A stretch of DNA of 64,000 nucleotides from positions 1-64,000 of the forward strand of contig JAHFDP010000010.1 in the NCBI GenBank assembly GCA_023248955.1, written 5' to 3'. Shown here one piece after another: positions 1-39,390 of the stretch (the stretch's first letter is position 1; each line of letters starts with the position of its first letter). The notes under the pieces were generated by a model, which was given only the letters and a program-made list of their open reading frames with translations, searched no databases and was not told the DNA's origin. Source of the stretch: Deltaproteobacteria bacterium (GTDB lineage: Bacteria; Myxococcota; Myxococcia; Myxococcales; JAHFDP01). The translations under genes were made by a program, and so were the position numbers.

Positions 1-89
1 TGGAATTTCGATTCGATGCTTTTTTGCAAATGGCGCGCGTGTGCAAACGAAGCCCGAAATCGAAACTTGACAAAAAATCACGTCGCTAA

Positions 90-336
90 TTTCCACCCAA
101 CTCACCACCGCGAACGTGTCGGGCGGGCGGGGGTGGCCCGAGGGCCGGCCCGCACGAGGCGAGCACTGTTTGACGTCAGCGCGTCGATTGCCTTTTCTGC
201 AATCGACGTGCTGGCGGAGTTGCGCAGCGAGCGGGCCGGCCCTCGGGCTGCCCCCGCCCGCCCGGCGCGTTCGCGGGGCACCGCCCGCCGCGGAGGCGAT
301 CAAGTTTTTAAGTGCTCACGCCAAAGTGCGAATTAG
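90..336. repeat. large hairpin repeat element, copy A
   Basis: A 34-base arm at 120-153 pairs with 231-264 with only two mismatches. An inner perfect 10-bp stem (182-191 with 199-208) lies in the loop. To the right, at 295-336, is a tail containing GCTCACGCCAAAGTG that recurs at 7636-7650 beside another large hairpin. The tail contains the TAA stop of the minus-strand hydrolase (333-335). The left flank carries CCACCCA, also shared with the second copy. Positions 1-89 hold no gene I can support. Confidence 0.75.
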
Positions 337-1361
337 CTTCGCGCCCGCAGCCAAGCCGTGATCTCGTGCCACACAAGCCGTGGTGCATGCTTGCCGCAAA
401 GCAGATCCACATGCCCGAAAGGCACCCCGTCGGCGACGCTACCGAAGAGCCGAAAAGTTCGATCGGCGCTGCCGGAAGTCTCGAAAGCTGGCAAAACTTC
501 GTCCGCGTGAATCAGCCGATCCTGCGCACCCGCAGCTGCGTAGAGCGGAACGTCGATGGTCCGAAACGCGGCGGCGTAGTCCTCTCCTTGCGGCCCATCA
601 AAGCGCCCCGTCACGCCCCAACGCGCGAGCGAACCGGCCAGCGGAAGCCATGCCCGATCGAACGACAACCGCAAAAGCTCGGCCATCACGGCGGGCTCGG
701 TGGCGCCTGGCGCGCAGATGTGCGGCAAAAGCGGCGGCGAGAGGCCAAGGATTTCCGGACGCAACGCCACGAGCTGCGCCAGCGGTTGGAACGGCACTGC
801 GCGGTGCGGCCAGACGCGCCAGAAACGCCCGACCTGCACCGCCGCGCCCAACGCCACCGCCGCACCGCCGATGCGCAGCGGGCCGGCGATGGAAACGATT
901 CCGCGCGGGAGCGGATCGAGCTTCGGCGCGGCCGCAAGACAGATGGCTGCGCCGAGCGAATGCGCCACCAGAAACGGCGTCTGCCCGGTCGTCTCTACGC
1001 AAGCACGATAGACCGTCGGAATGTCCTCGAAGGCGTGGCGCTCGAACGTCGGCGCCGGAGCGTGCGGATCATGCGAACGGCCGTGGCCACGAAGATCGAC
1101 GTTCCACGTATCGAAGCCCGCCGCCACCAGCGAAGCCGTGAAGCTGCGCGCCGGGAGATGAAACGAGTAGCGGTTCTGGCAGAAGCCGTGAACGAGAATG
1201 ACCGCTCCGCGCGGCGCATGCAGCGGTGTTTTGCGCGTGACATGCAACGCGCCGCCGTCCGGAAGCGCCAGCCGCAGGTACTCTTTGTTCAGCGAGACAA
1301 AAGAACCTGCATCGATGTGCTGAGAAAGCGGCAAGCTTACTTTGAGGATGTGTCGAGGCAA
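333..1361 (-). CDS. alpha/beta hydrolase, possibly exported (N-terminus uncertain)
   Basis: This is an alpha/beta-fold serine hydrolase of unknown substrate. The oxyanion segment VHGF is near residues 57-60, the nucleophile elbow is AHSLGA (Ser about 135), a GAQDRL acid segment follows, and FGHVDLL probably supplies the catalytic His. The annotated start is a TTG at 1361 with no convincing ribosome site. Directly upstream but in another frame, an ATG at 1408 encodes MKRLLPLVVLALLSAPC, a typical export signal, which runs into a stop after 23 codons. A single indel near 1340-1360 would join this signal to the hydrolase, so either the gene is frameshifted or the start is mis-set. The TAA stop lies inside a dispersed repeat tail. 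Confidence 0.85.
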   Translation of the reverse strand: MPRHILKVSLPLSQHIDAGSFVSLNKEYLRLALPDGGALHVTRKTPLHAPRGAVILVHGFCQNRYSFHLPARSFTASLVAAGFDTWNVDLRGHGRSHDPHAPAPTFERHAFEDIPTVYRACVETTGQTPFLVAHSLGAAICLAAAPKLDPLPRGIVSIAGPLRIGGAAVALGAAVQVGRFWRVWPHRAVPFQPLAQLVALRPEILGLSPPLLPHICAPGATEPAVMAELLRLSFDRAWLPLAGSLARWGVTGRFDGPQGEDYAAAFRTIDVPLYAAAGAQDRLIHADEVLPAFETSGSADRTFRLFGSVADGVPFGHVDLLCGKHAPRLVWHEITAWLRARS

Positions 1362-6207: not shown

Positions 6208-7308
6208 ATGCGTTGGTTGAAGCGACCTGCCCAATCCGCGCCGACCCCGACCTTCACGCTCCCAACACCGTTGGCGATGCTGCCCTGCCCGCGCGCCCGC
6301 ATTCGCCACCGCGAGCTCATCGAGGTGGTGGAGCGCCTCGTCCGCGCGCTCGGCGGTGACGCCGCGGTGCAGGTCTACGCAGCCGGTTCACGCGACTCGG
6401 CGGTGGCGGTGTTACGCGCAGTGACCAACGGTGCCCCCGAGCGGGCGCTGCAGGCCGCGCGGGCCGTGGTGCGCGACACGCAGCTACACCTCGTGGAAGT
6501 CCAACCGAAGTCGATCGAATCGACGGAGCGGTTTCTGGCCACGCTGGCCTCGGTGACCGCGCACGCCGCCCGCGACGAGCGGTGGGTGCATCAGCTTCAA
6601 GTTGAACTGGGCTTAGCTAAGCCTCAGCGCTCCGAGCAGCGCTACCATGTGCAACTCCCCTGCACGTTGCGCTGGGGCGAACAGGCCCGGCCGGGGATTG
6701 TGCTGAACCTCTCCATCGGCGGCATGTTCGTGGAGGTCGACGAGCCCCCGCCCCGCGACGTCGATCTGCGCATCGAGCTCACGGTGCCAACTTTCGATGG
6801 CGTGATCGCACTGACGGGCGCAGCGACGCACCAAGGCCGGCCCAGCCCGCTCGGGCGCGTGGGCGTCGGCGTGCGGCTGACTGGTGTTCGCGCGGGCGCG
6901 CACGAGGCCATCTCCGGTTTTCTTTCGCTGGCCGAGCGGGTCTCGCGACACCACGTGGTGCTCTCCGGCGCACCGCCCGAGGGACTGGAGCGCGCGCTCG
7001 GGTCGCTCGGCATGCAGATTCTCCAAGCTCGCGATCTCAGCATGCTGGTCGCCGCGCTGACCGACGATCCCGAGGGACCCGACCTCCTCGTGGTCTCGCC
7101 GCCCGATGCCGAACTCACCATGCGCGTGGTTCGCGTCGAGGGCGGTGACGCGGCTCTTCCCATTTTGGCGCGGGCTGCGTCGACGAGCGAGGGTGCTGCA
7201 CTGCGGGACCTGGGAGCCACCCTTCTATTGTCGGAGCGAGCTTCCCTGGAGGACACCGTGCGTGCGGTGGAGACGGCGTTATCTCTCGGGCGGCCTAGGG
7301 TGACTTAA
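6208..7308 (+). CDS. PilZ-domain protein with degenerate C-terminal domain
   Basis: 366 aa, cytoplasmic. A PilZ domain lies at about residues 145-245: the RYHVQLP arginine region followed by VLNLSIGGMFVEV, the N/DxSxGG c-di-GMP motif. PilZ proteins report c-di-GMP to motility, polysaccharide or development functions. The N-terminal third is helical and unrecognised. The C-terminal 110 residues (HHVVLSGAPPEGLERAL to the end) resemble a receiver-like alpha/beta fold without a clear phosphoacceptor Asp. The ATG at 6208 abuts an inverted repeat. Confidence 0.8.
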   Translation: MRWLKRPAQSAPTPTFTLPTPLAMLPCPRARIRHRELIEVVERLVRALGGDAAVQVYAAGSRDSAVAVLRAVTNGAPERALQAARAVVRDTQLHLVEVQPKSIESTERFLATLASVTAHAARDERWVHQLQVELGLAKPQRSEQRYHVQLPCTLRWGEQARPGIVLNLSIGGMFVEVDEPPPRDVDLRIELTVPTFDGVIALTGAATHQGRPSPLGRVGVGVRLTGVRAGAHEAISGFLSLAERVSRHHVVLSGAPPEGLERALGSLGMQILQARDLSMLVAALTDDPEGPDLLVVSPPDAELTMRVVRVEGGDAALPILARAASTSEGAALRDLGATLLLSERASLEDTVRAVETALSLGRPRVT

Positions 7309-7454
7309 GTTCGGCACTCTGCCTGCGCGGTGTACGGTGCCCGCGATCGGTTCGTGCTGATTGAAGTGGAATTCAGTGACATGATATTTTATCAAGTCAC
7401 GGTTCCGGTCAACGTCCGCGCGTACACGAATCTTTAGAACTTCATCGGATCAAA

Positions 7455-7657
7455 AATCCACCCATTATCCTCAGGTCGTGACGGGCGGGCGGGTTCCGTG
7501 CGGTGCGCGACCGGAGCCTCCGAGGTTGCCAACTCCTCCAAAGGCCCCCTCGCACGATCAATAACCGCACCGCACGGAATCTGCCCGACTGGCGCGACCC
7601 GCCCCGCACGCCGCGCAGGCGATCAATTTTTTATGCTCACGCCAAAGTGAAATTTAG
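7455..7657. repeat. large hairpin repeat element, copy B
   Basis: The 22-base arms at 7486-7507 and 7566-7587 pair with two mismatches. The right flank at 7618-7657 repeats the tail of copy A (GGCGATCAA, a T-run, then GCTCACGCCAAAGTG). As in copy A, the TAA stop of the adjacent minus-strand gene lies inside the tail. CCACCCA left of the hairpin is also shared. The rest of 7309-7454 has no gene I can support. Confidence 0.72.
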
Positions 7658-9066
7658 TGCGCCCCCCGCCCAAGTAAGACAGCAGGAATGGTCCGCAGAA
7701 CCAACTTCAGATCAAGCCACAAACTCCACGAATCAATGTACCGCAGGTCCAACTGCATCCATTCCTCAAATCCAATCTCGCTGCGCCCAGAAACCTGCCA
7801 AAAACAGGTCAGCCCCGGCTTCATCGAGAGCCGCCTCCGCTGCCACCGTTTGTACTGTGCAACCTCGCTGGGAATTGGCGGGCGCGGGCCCACGATGCTC
7901 ATCTCGCCGGCGAAAACGTGCCACAGCTGCGGCAGCTCATCGAGCGACGTCTTGCGCAACGCCGCGCCCACGGCCGTCAAGCGGGGATCGTGGCGAATCT
8001 TAAAAACCGGGCCATCGGCCTCGTTGTGCACAGCGAGCGATGAGCGCTGCGCCTCCGCGTTCAGCACCATCGAGCGAAATTTCAGGAACCAGAACTCGCG
8101 GCCGTTGAGGCCCACGCGGCGTTGGCGAAAGAGCACCGGCCCCGGACTTGACATTTTGACGGCCGCGGCCACCAGCGCGAAAAGCGGCGCCAGGAGCACC
8201 AGCGCCACGCCGGAGAGCACCACGTCGAAGGCGCGTTTGATGGCCAGCGCCCAGGCGTGCGTGGGGACGGTGTCGAAACCGAGTACCGGAATGCCGTCCA
8301 TCTCCTCGAAGGAGAGCCGCGAAAGTTTGTGGGGAAAAAAGTTGAGCACTAGACGAGCTCCGACACCGAGCTCTTCGCAGGTGAGAAAAGCCGGTTCCAG
8401 ATCGTCGAGACGACCGCGCCCCACCGCGAAGATCACTTCGTCGATGACCTGCGTTTCCAAAATAGAAGCGAGGTCGGTAAGCGCCCCGAGCAGCGGGCGG
8501 AGCGGCGCCCCGTCGGGCTCGCTGCCCGCATCGACATACCCCGCCACCACGAGTCCCCACTCCGAATGGCGAGCGATGGTCTGCCCGACCTCCTCCGCCG
8601 CCTCGCCACTTCCCACGATGGCCACCGTGCGCAGCCCCTGCCCTCGCCGGCGTGCGGACCGCACCACCAGCCAGGCCGCCACGCGCACGCCGGTGGTTCC
8701 CAAAAATACCAGCAGCGTAAAAAGTCCGACGAAGACACGCGACACGTCAAGCAAGCGCAGCGCGAACGCCCCCGCGAAAGTGGCCGCACCCACCGTGCAA
8801 GCCACCGAAGCGACGCGGAGGAGATCCAGCGAGACTGGCCGCACACGGCGCGACCGGTAAAACTGGGCCAGTCCTCCACCCACCGACCAGGCCACCAGCG
8901 CAACCGCGACTAACGGCAAGTAGGCGGACAACGGTGCGGCCGCGCGCAAAAACGCCGACGGAAATCGAGCCCGCAAGCCATAAGCGAAAAAAAACGCCGC
9001 GGCCACCGCGACCAAGTCCGCGGCAAACAAAGTTGTCGAGACAACACGGGCGCGCTGGCGCAGCAT
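7654..9066 (-). CDS. polyprenyl glycosylphosphotransferase (sugar-1-P transferase)
   Basis: 470 aa integral membrane enzyme that initiates exopolysaccharide or O-antigen repeat units by moving a sugar-1-phosphate onto undecaprenyl phosphate. Four or five N-terminal membrane helices are followed by a CoA-binding-like Rossmann domain (VAIVGSGEAAEEVG), another membrane helix near 280-310 and the C-terminal catalytic domain. The catalytic domain carries SSPGPVLFRQRRVGLNG, FLKFRSM, KTSLDELPQLWHVFAGEMSIVGPRP and the final LDLKLVLRTI. The donor sugar is not predictable. It lies 46 bp downstream of the fibrinogen-like lipoprotein gene in the same direction. Confidence 0.93.
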   Translation of the reverse strand: MLRQRARVVSTTLFAADLVAVAAAFFFAYGLRARFPSAFLRAAAPLSAYLPLVAVALVAWSVGGGLAQFYRSRRVRPVSLDLLRVASVACTVGAATFAGAFALRLLDVSRVFVGLFTLLVFLGTTGVRVAAWLVVRSARRRGQGLRTVAIVGSGEAAEEVGQTIARHSEWGLVVAGYVDAGSEPDGAPLRPLLGALTDLASILETQVIDEVIFAVGRGRLDDLEPAFLTCEELGVGARLVLNFFPHKLSRLSFEEMDGIPVLGFDTVPTHAWALAIKRAFDVVLSGVALVLLAPLFALVAAAVKMSSPGPVLFRQRRVGLNGREFWFLKFRSMVLNAEAQRSSLAVHNEADGPVFKIRHDPRLTAVGAALRKTSLDELPQLWHVFAGEMSIVGPRPPIPSEVAQYKRWQRRRLSMKPGLTCFWQVSGRSEIGFEEWMQLDLRYIDSWSLWLDLKLVLRTIPAVLLGRGAH

Positions 9067-10589: not shown

Positions 10590-10901
10590 GAGCCGGAAAG
10601 CCACAGTTGCCGTGGTACCGAGACGGTCGAACGTGGGCCGGCTACGAGGCGCGGACGAGGGGACTCCCCCGGTACCGGGGGAGATGTCGCGCAGCGACAG
10701 AGGGGGGCCGCTTGCGGCGAGCAAGCCCCCGGAAGCGCACTTTTCGGTGCGCTGAGGAGGCACCGGAGGAGCCCGCTATGTGATCGGGCGCTTCCAGCGC
10801 CACCAATCGGGCCGGCCGCGCTTTCAATATGCGCGGCAAGCACCGAAGTAGACAGCCCGCGATCGGCCGTCGCAGGTAACGGCAATTGTGGCTTTCCGGC
10901 T
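10590..10901. mobile_element. MITE-like element with about 40-bp terminal inverted repeats
   Basis: The left end begins AGCCGGAAAGCCACAGTTGC; the reverse complement of the right end (ending at 10901) begins AGCCGGAAAGCCACAATTGC. The similarity continues about 20 more bases with small gaps. The interior holds REP-like hairpins (CTCCCCCGGTACCGGGGGAG) and a segment at 10782-10847 shared with 39246-39312. There is no transposase inside, so any movement would be in trans. It separates the glycosyltransferase from the fibrinogen-like lipoprotein gene. Confidence 0.65.
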
Positions 10902-20688: not shown

Positions 20689-21075
20689 ATGCGCCCGCTC
20701 TTATTGCTTGCGACACTTCTCGCCGCCGCGTCGTCCGCCCGCGCCGCGCCGGTCCAACACAGCACTTTTCCGAGCGAGCTTTCACCAGAAACACAGGCGC
20801 AGCTGATCGTCGAAGTGACCGGCCTTCGAGTTTGGCTTCTACGATGCCGAGCGTCGGACCGAGTGGAACAACGGTGGCTACAATTTCGGCCGAGGTCACG
20901 AATTTATTTTGGGATCGAAACTGGTCACCGCGGAGCTCGCCAAATGGACGCGGCGATCGGAAGCGATGCGGAAGACGAAAGTGGCGCATGCCGTGATTCC
21001 CGCGTGGACGGCGCGCGTCTCCTCGCCCGCGGAGCTTCGACACAAGCTAGCGACGCGCGCGGACTTTCGGACTCC
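20689..21075 (+). pseudogene. frameshifted gene for a secreted protein
   Basis: A clear signal peptide (MRPLLLLATLLAAASSARA) and 25 more residues read in one frame to about 20822. The sequence then makes sense only in the next frame (FEFGFYDAERRTEWNNGGYN, then LGSKLVTAELAKWTRR and so on). Deleting one C in GGCCTTCGAG near 20822 restores a continuous frame. The 3' end runs straight into REP-like repeats near 21072. It therefore looks like a decayed or sequencing-frameshifted exported protein of about 130 aa. No family was recognised. Confidence 0.6.
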
Positions 21076-21238
21076 CTCCCCCTTGACGGGGGAAGGTCAG
21101 GGTCGTCATCTATTTCCCTCCCCCTTGACGGGGGAGGGTCAGGGTGGGGGTGCACGTGACCTGCGGATTCGCTCCCCCCACCCTAGCCCTCCCCCGCAAG
21201 GGGGGAGGGGATTGCGTAAATAGGGGATTGCGTAAATG
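21072..21238. repeat. cluster of REP-like hairpins and a short direct repeat
   Basis: Two direct copies of CCCTCCCCCTTGACGGGGG (21073-21103 and 21116-21162) are followed by an inverted related copy (21172-21210) ending GGGGGGAGGGG. GGGGATTGCGTAAAT then occurs twice (21207-21236). The units can pair with each other, forming strong hairpins between the decayed gene and the convergent carboxyltransferase gene. A further partial copy is at 29650-29694. Confidence 0.75.
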
Positions 21239-25534: not shown

Positions 25535-25693
25535 CTGTGAGCCTGTGAAAATTTCATTTTTCGCTCGCAGCGCCGCGGCGAAAGCTGCGGCGGCGGGTGG
25601 GGTGAATGCGCCGATTCACTCGGCGCAGAGGGGCGGGCAGCGGCCCGACCCTTCAAAACCCAGAGGTTGTGAGTATTTTTCACAACCTCTGGG
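25535..25693. repeat. structured repeat element with palindromic ends
   Basis: The right end is a perfect 14-bp stem with a 7-base loop (25659-25693, CCCAGAGGTTGTGA arm). The left end (25540-25570) is an imperfect hairpin CTGTGAGC to GCTCGCAG. The interior segment at 25606-25657, with GCGCCGATTCACTCGGCGCA, is nearly identical to 39304-39351. It sits directly upstream of the PspC gene and may provide its leader. Confidence 0.65.
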
Positions 25694-29649: not shown

Positions 29650-29694
29650 GTGACGTGCACCCCCACCCTGACTCTTCCCCGTCAAAGGGGGAGG
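29650..29694. repeat. REP-like unit
   Basis: The reverse complement of this stretch (CCTCCCCCTTTGACGGGG and onward through GGGTGGGGGTGCACGT) matches the second unit of the 21072-21238 cluster. It lies between hydA and the aminotransferase and could protect or pause the hydA transcript. Confidence 0.6.
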
Positions 29695-29711
29695 AAAAAT
29701 ACGAGAAAAAA

Positions 29712-35478: not shown

Positions 35479-38400
35479 ATGTCCCGATCGATTGCCTGCT
35501 TGTTGCTCGTTGGCGCGAGTTGTCTCTCGTCGCCGAAGTCCACGGATCTTCGTTTTGGCGCGACCCGGTCGGCGGTGGCGCCGACGTTGTCGCCGGCCAA
35601 CGTGACGCTGGCGCAGGGGCAGACGCAGCAGTTCACGGCGACCGGGACGGGTCCCTACACTTGGGCGCTGCAGCCAAGCCCCTCTGGAAGCATCGACAGC
35701 ACAGGTCTCTACACGGCGGGGAGCCCTGGCTCAACCGGGGCAACGGACACGGTGACTGTCACCGACACAGGCGCGGGCAGCACCACCGCGACGGCCACGG
35801 TCACGATCTCCAAGGGTGTGAATGCCTTCAACAACGGCGGCGCAGGAAACGGGGTCATCGCCGGCAACGGATTCGCGGTCTCTAGCACTAGCCGCGTCGA
35901 GCGACGAGTGGCCCAGACGTTCACGGCAGCGGCGCCCGTGGGCGGCGACACGCAGGCGATGGCGACGCTGGCCGCCGTGGACATGGTGCGCGCCTCCGGC
36001 GGAAGCGGACAAAACATCAAGGCGGAGATTCACTCCCTCACCGGTACGGGGAACATCGATGACCAGGGCGCGGGGAACGCCTACTCGTCGGGGACCATCT
36101 CCGCGCTCTCCGCGCTGCCGACCCCCAACGTAAAGACGCGCGTGCTCATTCCTTTGACGCCGGGGACCGCGCTCACGGTGGGGACGACCTATGCGCTGGT
36201 GCTGAAGGCGGACGTGGCCGGGACACTGTCGTCGTTCGTGAGCGAGACGCCGCTCGCGGGCAATGGAGGCTGGTGGTACGCCAAACGCGTACACATCGGC
36301 GGCTGGGTGGCGCGCGGGGTCTACGCGACACCGGCCTCTAATTACATTCACGATACGACATACAGTGTATCCGGAAACGTGTTCTTGGGCGAAATCTACA
36401 CGTCGCCGACGACCTCCAGCATCAGCCCGACGTCGGCGAGCGTGAACGCTGCGGGTTTTACGCTCACGGTGAACGGCACCAACTTCTTCGCGTCGTCGAC
36501 GGTGAATTGGAATGGGAGCGCGCGGACCACGACCTATGTGAACGCGACGCAGCTCACGGCGACCATTCCGGGTTCGGATCTCACGAGCGCCGGAACGAAC
36601 AGCGTGACCGTGGCGACACCCGCGCCGGGCGGCGGTACCAGCGGAGCGCAAACCTTCTCAGCGAACAACCCATCGCCGACGGTTTCCAGCTTGAATCCCA
36701 CCAACGTGAACGCCGGCACCGGTGCGCTGACGCTGACCGTGAATGGGTCGAACTTCGTGTCCGGCGCGACGGTGAACTGGGCCGGCAGCGCGCGGACGAC
36801 CACCTACGTGAGCGGGACCAAGCTCACCGCCTCGCTCACCTCGTCGGACGTGGCGAGCGCAGGATCGTTTAGCGTGACGGTGACGAACCCCACGCCGGGC
36901 GGCGGTACCAGCAGCGCGGCCACGTTCACGGTGAACTCCGCGGGACCGACCTACGTCACTGGCAACAGCATCGGGTTCGGCTACTACCACGCCTGCACGA
37001 TCGTCAACGGTGGGGTGCAGTGCTGGGGTTACAACACCTATGGGGAAATAGGCAACAACTCCACGACAGACGTCCACACACCGGTTGCCGTCACCGGCCT
37101 CGGTAGCGGCGCACAGCTCGTTGTCAACGGCGCCTATTCGAGCTGCGCAATCGTTAATGGCGGTGCACAGTGCTGGGGGCGCGGCTGGTACGGCGAGCTT
37201 GGCAACAACTCGACAGCAGATGCTGCAGTAACCACTCCAGTCCAGGTTGTTGGTTTGACGAGCGGGGTTCAGGACATCAAGGAGGCCTACCGCAGTGGAT
37301 GTGCGCTCGTGAACGGAGGCGTTCAATGCTGGGGCAACAACCAGTTTGGAGACCTCGGCAACAACTCCGTCTCCGACAGCAGCGTGCCAGTGCAGGTCTA
37401 TGGCTTGAGCAGCGGTGTGCAGGCGATCGCCAAGGGCGAGTACCATACCTGCGCGCTCGTCAACGGCGGTGTCCAATGCTGGGGACGAGGCCAGCAGGGA
37501 CAACTTGGTAACAACGCCACGGCCGATAACCATATCCCCGTGCAGGTTACCGGTCTTCCGGCAGGCAGCGGCGTGCAAGCCATTGCGACGGGCGACTATC
37601 ACTCCTGCGCGATTGTCAACGGTAGCGCTCAGTGCTGGGGTAACAACAGCAGCCGTGGCGATCTGGGCAACAACTCCACCGCTCAGAGCAACGTTCCTGT
37701 TCAAGTCCTCGGACTGACTGCCGGCGTTGACTTTCTCGGTCTGGGGACCAATCTCTCCTGTGCCATAGCGGATGGTAGCGCGAAATGCTGGGGCTGGAAT
37801 AGCAACGGACAGCTCGGCAACAACAGCGTGAGCGACAGCTTGGTGCCGATGCAAGTGCTTGGGCTCACCGGCGGCGCCACGGCCATCGCCGCTGGTGCCT
37901 ACTCGGCCTGTGCCATCGTTAACGGCGCCGTCAAGTGCTGGGGAAGCAACTCCAATGGCTACCTCGGCGATAACACCGTCACCGAGAGGCACGTACCCGT
38001 TCAGGTTGTCGGGCTCACCTCGGGCCTTCTCGCGGCCACCACCGGAAAATACAATGGATGTGCGATAGTCAATGGCGGCGTTCAGTGCTGGGGCCACAAC
38101 CATTACGGCCAGCTCGGCAACAACAGCACAAGCGATACCCACGTCCCGACCAAGGCCGATGCTTCGGTGCAGAGCGGCGTTCAATCCGTTACTTCGGCCT
38201 TTTATGGATCTTGCGCGATCGTCAACGGCGCCGCGTTGTGCTGGGGCAGGAACGCATTTGGTCAGCTTGGCAACAACACCTGCTGCACGCAAAGCAATGT
38301 CCCCGTGCAGGTCCTCGGCCTTACCAGTGGTGTGCAAGCAGTCGTTACCAATGAGAACGAGGACGCTTGCGCCATCGTCAACGGCAGCGCCCAATGCTGG

Positions 38401-39120
38401 GGGTATGGTGCCGGCGGCCAACTCGGCAACAACGCTACCTCCAATCAGTATGCGCCGGTGCAGGTTACCGGGCTCACGAGCGGTGTGCAGCAGCTCTCCG
38501 GCACCAATGAATCCTTCTGCGCGCTGGCGAACGGCGGCGTGCAGTGCTGGGGCCGCAACAACTACGGCGAGCTCGGCAACGGTTCGATCGGCGGCAGCAG
38601 CAACACACCGGTCGCGGTCGCGGGGCTCACCAGCGGCGTGAAGTCGATTTCCTGCTCGCAGTCCCACTGCTGCGCGGTCGCCAGCGGCGGTCTGCAGTGC
38701 TGGGGCTCGAACGGCCAGGGACAGCTCGGCAACAACGATACCTCGAACAGCGGCTCGGCGGTGCAGGTCAGCGGAATCGCAGCCGGCGCCCAACAGATCG
38801 CCTCGGGCGGCGACGTCGGCGGTGCCCAGGCAGTCTGGCCCTACGAGGGTTTCACCTGCGCGCTCATCAATGGCGGGGTCCAGTGTTTCGGCGGCAACAG
38901 CTTTAGCCAGCTGGGCAACGCCAGCACGACCCAATCGCTGGTGCCGGTCCAGACGAGCTCGCTCGCCAGCGGAGCCCAGTCGGTTTCCAGCGGTGGCTCG
39001 TTCGCCTGTGCGCTGGTGGGCGGAAGCGTCCAGTGTTGGGGGGCGAACAACGAAGGCGAGCTTGGAAACAACTCAACGACCTCCAGCAACGTCCCGGTGA
39101 CCGTATCCGCGTTTCAGTGA
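35479..39120 (+). CDS. giant RCC1-repeat lipoprotein
   Basis: 1213 aa. The leader SIACLLLVGASC gives a lipoprotein. Domains in order: a Big2-like Ig domain (about 30-115), an unrecognised 200-residue beta domain, two IPT/TIG Ig domains (SISPTSASVNAAGFTLTVNG, then VSSLNPTNVNAGTGALTLTV), then 14 RCC1/regulator-of-chromosome-condensation-like repeats with core CAIVNGGVQCWGxNxxGQLG. Fourteen blades would make two seven-bladed propellers. Each blade holds two Cys, so disulfides may lock the blades outside the cell. The AT-rich leader contains GAAAGAGGGG before the ATG. Confidence 0.92.
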   Translation: MSRSIACLLLVGASCLSSPKSTDLRFGATRSAVAPTLSPANVTLAQGQTQQFTATGTGPYTWALQPSPSGSIDSTGLYTAGSPGSTGATDTVTVTDTGAGSTTATATVTISKGVNAFNNGGAGNGVIAGNGFAVSSTSRVERRVAQTFTAAAPVGGDTQAMATLAAVDMVRASGGSGQNIKAEIHSLTGTGNIDDQGAGNAYSSGTISALSALPTPNVKTRVLIPLTPGTALTVGTTYALVLKADVAGTLSSFVSETPLAGNGGWWYAKRVHIGGWVARGVYATPASNYIHDTTYSVSGNVFLGEIYTSPTTSSISPTSASVNAAGFTLTVNGTNFFASSTVNWNGSARTTTYVNATQLTATIPGSDLTSAGTNSVTVATPAPGGGTSGAQTFSANNPSPTVSSLNPTNVNAGTGALTLTVNGSNFVSGATVNWAGSARTTTYVSGTKLTASLTSSDVASAGSFSVTVTNPTPGGGTSSAATFTVNSAGPTYVTGNSIGFGYYHACTIVNGGVQCWGYNTYGEIGNNSTTDVHTPVAVTGLGSGAQLVVNGAYSSCAIVNGGAQCWGRGWYGELGNNSTADAAVTTPVQVVGLTSGVQDIKEAYRSGCALVNGGVQCWGNNQFGDLGNNSVSDSSVPVQVYGLSSGVQAIAKGEYHTCALVNGGVQCWGRGQQGQLGNNATADNHIPVQVTGLPAGSGVQAIATGDYHSCAIVNGSAQCWGNNSSRGDLGNNSTAQSNVPVQVLGLTAGVDFLGLGTNLSCAIADGSAKCWGWNSNGQLGNNSVSDSLVPMQVLGLTGGATAIAAGAYSACAIVNGAVKCWGSNSNGYLGDNTVTERHVPVQVVGLTSGLLAATTGKYNGCAIVNGGVQCWGHNHYGQLGNNSTSDTHVPTKADASVQSGVQSVTSAFYGSCAIVNGAALCWGRNAFGQLGNNTCCTQSNVPVQVLGLTSGVQAVVTNENEDACAIVNGSAQCWGYGAGGQLGNNATSNQYAPVQVTGLTSGVQQLSGTNESFCALANGGVQCWGRNNYGELGNGSIGGSSNTPVAVAGLTSGVKSISCSQSHCCAVASGGLQCWGSNGQGQLGNNDTSNSGSAVQVSGIAAGAQQIASGGDVGGAQAVWPYEGFTCALINGGVQCFGGNSFSQLGNASTTQSLVPVQTSSLASGAQSVSSGGSFACALVGGSVQCWGANNEGELGNNSTTSSNVPVTVSAFQ

Positions 39121-39161: not shown

Positions 39162-39390
39162 CTGAAGAGCTGTCGATTAATCGGCAACTCTTCAGTCCGA
39201 CACGCAATCTCGAGCGCGGCGGCGGGCGGGGTGAGCCCGGGGTTCGATCGAGCGCTTCCAGCGCCACCGCACGGGCCGGCGGCGCTTCCAACATGCGCCG
39301 CACATGCGCCGATTCACTCGGCGCAGAGGGGTGGGCGGCCCGACCTTTCAATGGCCAGGAGTTGTCAATTGCAATTAATCGACAACTCTT
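39162..39390. repeat. dispersed element with palindromic ends, copy of the 10.6/25.6 kb family
   Basis: The left end is a 34-base palindrome (39162-39195, CTGAAGAGCTGTCG arm) with two mismatched positions per arm. The right end carries GAGTTGTC (39359-39366) pairing with GACAACTC (39381-39388). The reverse complement of the right end resembles the left end. The interior shares 39246-39312 with 10782-10847 and 39304-39351 with 25606-25657. The remaining 39391-39682 holds no gene I can see. Confidence 0.7.

Follow-up and report, generated by a model that had tools for sequence, protein, structure and literature searches.

At the left edge of the window, by which the whole stretch of 64,000 nucleotides that was analysed is meant, a strong hairpin (positions 90 to 336) lies directly against the end of a gene. 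In the initial annotation, its tail was thought to supply the stop codon of that gene, and a second copy (copy B) appeared to repeat the arrangement. The locus therefore raises the question of what kind of element this is, and of how it comes to stand at gene ends. The hairpin was found to be one copy of a small repeat dispersed in the source genome. Very probably, this repeat is a lineage-specific, non-coding and MITE-like mobile palindromic element, kept mainly at gene ends.

Copies A and B in the window

The features of both copies and their neighbouring genes are collected in Table 1. Copy-bearing loci are named by the contig of the source assembly (C37 for the contig of the window; C45, C64, C15, C71 and so on for the others).

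Table 1. Features of copies A and B and of the adjoining genes (window positions).
Feature	Position	Strand	Basis or remark
Copy A, AT-rich centre (TTCGATTCGAT ... TTCCACCCA)	1..107	+	Aligns with the centres of C45, C64, C15 and C71
Copy A, long hairpin with type 2 arms; inner hairpin at ~173-216	108..276	+	Arm match, fold, type-2 relatives
Copy A, small stem region and T-run, common to both hairpin types	277..309	+	Alignment, sequence
Copy A, tail = terminal inverted repeat of the unit (TGCTCACGCCAAAGTG)	313..328	+	Tail search, alignment
Alpha/beta hydrolase gene (Hydrolase_4/Abhydrolase)	333..1361	-	TAA at 333-335, 4 nt outside the terminal repeat
PilZ-domain gene, convergent with 7654-9066, that ends at copy B's degenerate left end	6208..7308	+	
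Copy B, degenerate left half and centre; left long hairpin absent	7309..7440	+	Alignment; C37:7365-7650 matches query 201-488
Copy B, long hairpin with type 1 arms	7474..7599	+	Arm match, fold, type-1 alignment member
Copy B, tail = terminal inverted repeat	7634..7649	+	Exact tail match
EPS sugar transferase gene (TIGR03025), full length to the native C terminus	7654..9066	-	TAA at 7654-7656, 4 nt outside the terminal repeat

Both the hairpin of copy A and its inner hairpin proved real. The arms, first described as a near-perfect inverted repeat of 34 bp, were found to be 54 nt long (108-161 and 223-276) and 87% complementary. Folding of 90-336 as RNA gave -179.7 kcal/mol, versus a mean of -114.9 for shuffled sequences (z = -13.25; 0 of 200 shuffles as good). 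For copy B, the DNA fold gave z = -5.18, again with 0 of 200 shuffles as good. Since base 1 of the window is also base 1 of contig C37, the other half of copy A is missing; BLAST of window positions 1-131 gave matches in the centres of C15, C45, C21 and C64.

The conserved tail reported for the two copies is identical in both and corresponds to the terminal inverted repeat of the unit, and the reported difference between their hairpin arms reflects two hairpin types in the alignment. Copy B also repeats the placement of the stop codon, with a TAA 4 nt from the terminal repeat in either copy. This TAA was said to lie in the tail; in A and B it stands outside it, and its bases are not conserved at the other ends.

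Other repeats were observed elsewhere in the window. A 70-nt pair at 81% identity occupies 10769-10838 and 39233-39302, and a 36-nt pair at 94% identity (25606-25641 and 39304-39339) adjoins the 70-nt family at 39.2-39.3 kb. The repeat CCCTCCCCCTTGACGGGGGA..GGTCAGGGT is arranged in tandem at 21073-21160 and inverted at 29650-29704. Finally, 13 or more repeats, most of them spaced by 150-156 nt, lie in 36979-39113; they resemble coding repeats of the RCC1 type.

Copy number and architecture of the family

The source assembly (3,828,829 bases or 3.83 Mb, 116 contigs, 95.57% complete) was searched using the tail, the type-1 half and copy A, and the places found were read, resulting in 17 sites with 20 half-elements. 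Twelve halves are of type 1 (as copy B), seven of type 2 (as copy A), a tally that takes in the partial copy at C39, and one is a short hairpin (C84). The tail pattern gave 14 matches in this genome and the reversed pattern, as a control, three; three of the 14 (C19, C49 and C92) have no hairpin and were removed before counting. The 17 sites adjoin differing gene families, their flanks are unrelated, and the repeat is sharply delimited. Five of the sites are no more than 120 bp from the end of a contig, versus 0.12 expected, as for a repeat that breaks the assembly, and the true copy number is therefore probably higher. At C112:104476-104704, a run of 10 N within the hairpin marks a scaffolding gap at the element.

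A complete unit is a 482-bp quasi-palindrome of two inverted halves. Read inwards from either end, the terminal repeat CACTTTGGCGTGAGC is followed by a small stem and then by a long hairpin; an AT-rich centre lies between the two halves. Complete units were found at C45:18199-18680 and C64:2979-3459. They are 89% identical to each other and lie in unrelated flanks. Either end of each carries a CACTTTGG(C/T)GTGAG-like sequence, which at C64R is one base short; the C45 unit is 77% identical to its reverse complement. One terminal repeat is common to both hairpin types, the arms differing, and the C71 unit combines a type-2 left half with a type-1 right half. Together with this left half, C30, C66, C35 and C45:23971 are the type-2 relatives of copy A.

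In the last ~120 bases of both C30 (L109) and C66 (L110), a second palindromic repeat common to the two contigs, CGTCATGGCCGGGCTTGACCCGG...CCGGCCATGACG, was seen beside the type-2 copies. It is perhaps a nested element in the unit centre, and we take it to resemble a repeat of alphaproteobacteria.

Conservation of the stems

Covariation was assessed in an alignment of 11 of the 12 type-1 halves, C112 being left out for its run of N. The long hairpin was modelled with 45 pairs (helices 1-3). In the type-1 halves, 98.3% of 536 cells were paired, and eight pairs, with 17 cells, had changed on both sides. For each of the three measures (paired cells, two-sided pairs and two-sided cells) 0 of 500 shuffles scored as high, the kinship of the copies limiting what these shuffles prove. 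When partners were slid by 1-3 columns, pairing fell to 37-47%. The stems are kept by two-sided changes, and many G-U states occur in them. Template-switch correction of palindromes could yield two-sided changes without selection. A known RNA family was considered and rejected: at the Rfam gathering score only two tRNAs were found in the window, and six copy-bearing loci (E up to 5) yielded only matches below the threshold.

Distribution outside the source genome

Among 147 genomes of the class, with four candidates scored per genome, the family was not found outside the source genome at E <= 1e-6. In a second comparison, with at most 13 candidates per genome, 18 of 60 genomes (the source genome included) matched at E up to 0.01; the best match outside the source genome covers 39 bases (E 2.1e-5) and is read as GC-rich chance. 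The relatives compared are related at order level or more distantly. The plasmids and phages searched gave no match.

A 23-mer of the hairpin core had no hits in genome_contigs, a set from which the source genome itself may be omitted. An 18-mer of the tail had seven hits in this set and one viral hit, each isolated and with no second copy of the motif; these are read as chance, about seven being expected by our own arithmetic. Three of the tail hits share one recurring coding context, which by eye we take to be pyruvate kinase-like. In view of the isolated hits and their near-chance number, the tail was rejected as a widespread transposon end. Three relatives (L063-L065) carry one near-match each to the 16-mer tail. 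Searching genome and relatives for the tail, as had been suggested at the outset, thus recovered a multi-copy sequence in the source genome and did not find the family elsewhere.

Position relative to stop codons

Sixteen ends with a recognisable terminal repeat were counted, and six without one were excluded (B left, C21, C66, C35, C64:6269 and C45:23971). A gene 3′ end is faced by 10 of the 16, and not by C70R, C15L, C15R, C71R, C84R and C39R. At half of the ends (A, B, C45L, C45R, C64R, C112R, C71L and C37bR) no more than 8 nt separate a stop codon from the CACTTT edge; C37bR is included on account of a short remnant frame identified by eye (7 of 15 ends without it). Stops at 30 and 37 nt were found for C64L and C30R, respectively. 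At C45R, the gene caller missed the true trypsin-like gene (Pfam match) and called a weak plus-strand frame without a Pfam match.

In the window, the chance that an intergenic end placed at random has a stop facing it within 8 nt is p = 0.0155, giving a binomial probability of 3.8e-11 for 8 of 16 ends; this null was derived from a home-made hexamer gene caller (47 genes), which misses genes and makes gaps look larger than they are, and the two ends of a pair are not independent of each other. Counted per site, 7 of 12 sites stand beside a stop, for which the probability is 6.7e-4 even with p = 0.15 per site. Placement is accordingly non-random relative to stops, at eight of 16 ends versus a null of about 1.5% per end. 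The expectation that every copy begins at a stop codon failed at the six ends that do not face the 3′ end of a gene. Enrichment of the repeat directly after stop codons is real; it is not a rule.

Beside one copy, at C37:64479-64577 (L107), a remnant of ~20 codons ending in DPIDALRYE-stop was observed, presumably the C terminus of an FtsX/MacB-type permease. A donor gene was sought for this 20-codon remnant beside C37:64575 and discarded, the genome holding no second copy and giving weak chance matches only.

Source of the stop codons

For copies A and B, the claim that the tail supplies the stop codon was abandoned: the TAA is not part of the terminal repeat, and the sugar transferase beside copy B matches TIGR03025 up to profile position 444 of 445 at residue 469 of 470. 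Because this gene ends where its family ends, its stop is native. At four ends (C45L, C64R, C112R and C37bR), the TGA of an outer TGATCA(C), which could be either terminal repeat or target, serves as the stop. The same TGATCA flanks C45R and C64L and is absent from the other 10 of the 16 ends. At C21 and at the left end of copy B, where the terminal repeat has been lost, the stop is found in element-like sequence. The stop may be element-derived at these two ends and at the four TGATCAC ends. The gene at C45L reaches position 468 of 474 of the NF006596 profile at residue 478 of 483, so that its end is close to native. The enzyme at C112 reaches position 244 of 264 of NF008877 at residue 264 of 269 and may be ~15 residues shorter than its family.

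Origin and mobility

A MITE-like nature is indicated by terminal inverted repeats at both ends, a length of 482 bp (below 500 bp) and dispersed copies in unrelated flanks; no empty site was seen, and we infer mobility from the copies rather than from presence or absence at a site. A consistent target duplication was not observed: the flanks of C71 and C15 differ, and those of C45 and C64 form the palindromic TGATCA, compatible with a duplication or with a terminal repeat. The repeat would owe its dispersal to a transposase supplied in trans. Copies reduced to one half or with a degenerate end would then go back to the loss of an arm, a loss that is expected of long palindromes, and the survivors would be found mostly at gene ends, as insertion there spares coding sequence and promoter. 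Between convergent genes, the hairpins could in addition form a 3′ end that works in both directions.

Such a role might instead be primary, the repeat being a host-domesticated bidirectional terminator or mRNA 3′ stabiliser that is needed by convergent genes and has spread secondarily. This is conceivable, if unlikely. It would suit the convergent genes around the complete C45 and C64 units and copy B, the outward-facing small stem with its T-run (terminator-like site at L099:3635-3649) and the conservation of stems with many G-U states. However, terminator-like sites are not above shuffles (1 versus 0.8; 14 versus 11.0), the C15 and C70 copies lie between divergent genes, C71R lies just before a start, and the family was not found in any other genome searched.

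Site-directed insertion, in which an enzyme recognises a feature of gene ends (for instance a stop-containing TGATCA, a terminator or a single-stranded feature) and inserts precisely after stops, we consider unlikely. The stop-adjacent excess, counted per end or per site, agrees with it, as do TGATCA at six ends, with the TGA being the stop of the gene in four, and the family matches of the genes at copy B and C45L, which run to within a few residues of the family end. On the other hand, six of the 16 ends face no gene 3′ end, 10 of 16 have no TGATCA, and the same skew is expected if hits in genes and promoters are selected against. Of the precise insertion at gene ends suggested initially, the discrete repeat and its excess beside stops were thus upheld, but six ends lie elsewhere, and targeting and selection would look alike. 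The skew to stop codons may reflect either targeting or survival. A rather doubtful extension is a mobile element whose mobiliser recognises the stop codon or the bases next to it (frequently a TGATCA in which TGA is the stop), which would provide convergent genes with a ready-made double-hairpin 3′ end at no coding loss.

Descent from an IS21- or Tn7-like transposon with several spaced transposase-binding repeats per end appears improbable. Multiple end repeats are typical of IS21- and Tn7-like families, and two or three copies of a terminal CCAAAGTGA-like motif, spaced by 18-19 bp, do occur at the element end of C39 (C39:70357-70406, L105) and C15 (C15:18410-18437, L102). However, of the 195 phylum genomes searched, only the source genome showed this repeated-end (C39-type) pattern, and no viral contig did. 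One strong IstB match was obtained, to an IS21 copy in C86; its end repeats are different and unrelated to the repeat, so that it was rejected as the source. Around IstB in C86 no repeated CCAAAGTGA/GATCACTTT-like end was found, and one near-match lies inside the IstA frame. In this fragmented assembly, profiles PF01695 and PF01797 revealed no transposase with matching ends.

A REP or REPIN moved by a RAYT transposase is very improbable: the conserved foot of the hairpins, their occurrence singly and as inverted pairs, and a 3′ bias recall the behaviour described in PMC3733652, but the units far exceed 20-40 bp REPs, no GTAG or CGTC foot tag was seen on inspection of the alignment, and Y1_Tnp (PF01797) has no match in the 95.57% complete source assembly versus matches in 5 of 14 control genomes, so that a RAYT-driven element was rejected. 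The MITE-like mobile repeat is retained as the very probable reading.

Comparison with known repeats

No paper describing this family, or such elements in the lineage, was found in the literature searched, which mostly leaves out subscription journals. The pneumococcal BOX, RUP and SPRITE repeats are over-represented between convergent genes and are read as parasitic mobile elements, and 36 genes end in a BOX repeat encoding their stop, with no strong evidence of truncation (PMC3049150). The present family is likewise made up of small palindromic and presumably non-coding repeats at convergent gene ends and close to stops. BOX is modular (A-B-C), whereas here two long-hairpin halves are inverted, in a different, GC-rich lineage; the comparison drawn here is one of arrangement and placement.

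According to PMC3733652, the termini of GTAG REPs often provide the stop codon, and REPs are mostly located downstream of genes, between unidirectional and convergent genes. Like REPs and REPINs, the repeat has hairpins with a conserved foot, occurs solo and in inverted pairs, and is mostly found downstream of genes. REP units of 20-40 bp carry a GTAG/CGTC tag and have a RAYT, whereas the halves here are ~200 nt, with no tag and no Y1_Tnp match. GTAG- and CGTC-tagged REPs, BIMEs and REPINs are reportedly treated in a further paper (PMC3116915).

The prokaryotic MITEs QMITE1/2 and Chunjie are below 500 bp and intergenic, with terminal inverted repeats, strong folds and many truncated copies, and QMITE2 lies mainly 3′ of ORFs, in 3′ untranslated regions (PMC10969869). 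All of the former traits, from size, terminal inverted repeats and strong folding to truncated copies and intergenic position, are shared by the present family, which differs in being GC-rich and in having two hairpin types under one terminal repeat.

In this family, an accumulation of repeats at stop codons can be seen in a compact genome, and its copies account for several breaks in the assembly. Should insertion be targeted to gene ends, it would represent a safe-harbour strategy; if not, it repeats the tolerance pattern of BOX and REP. An undescribed repeat family is thereby added to the lineage, ordinary in its behaviour when set against the BOX, REP and MITE precedents.
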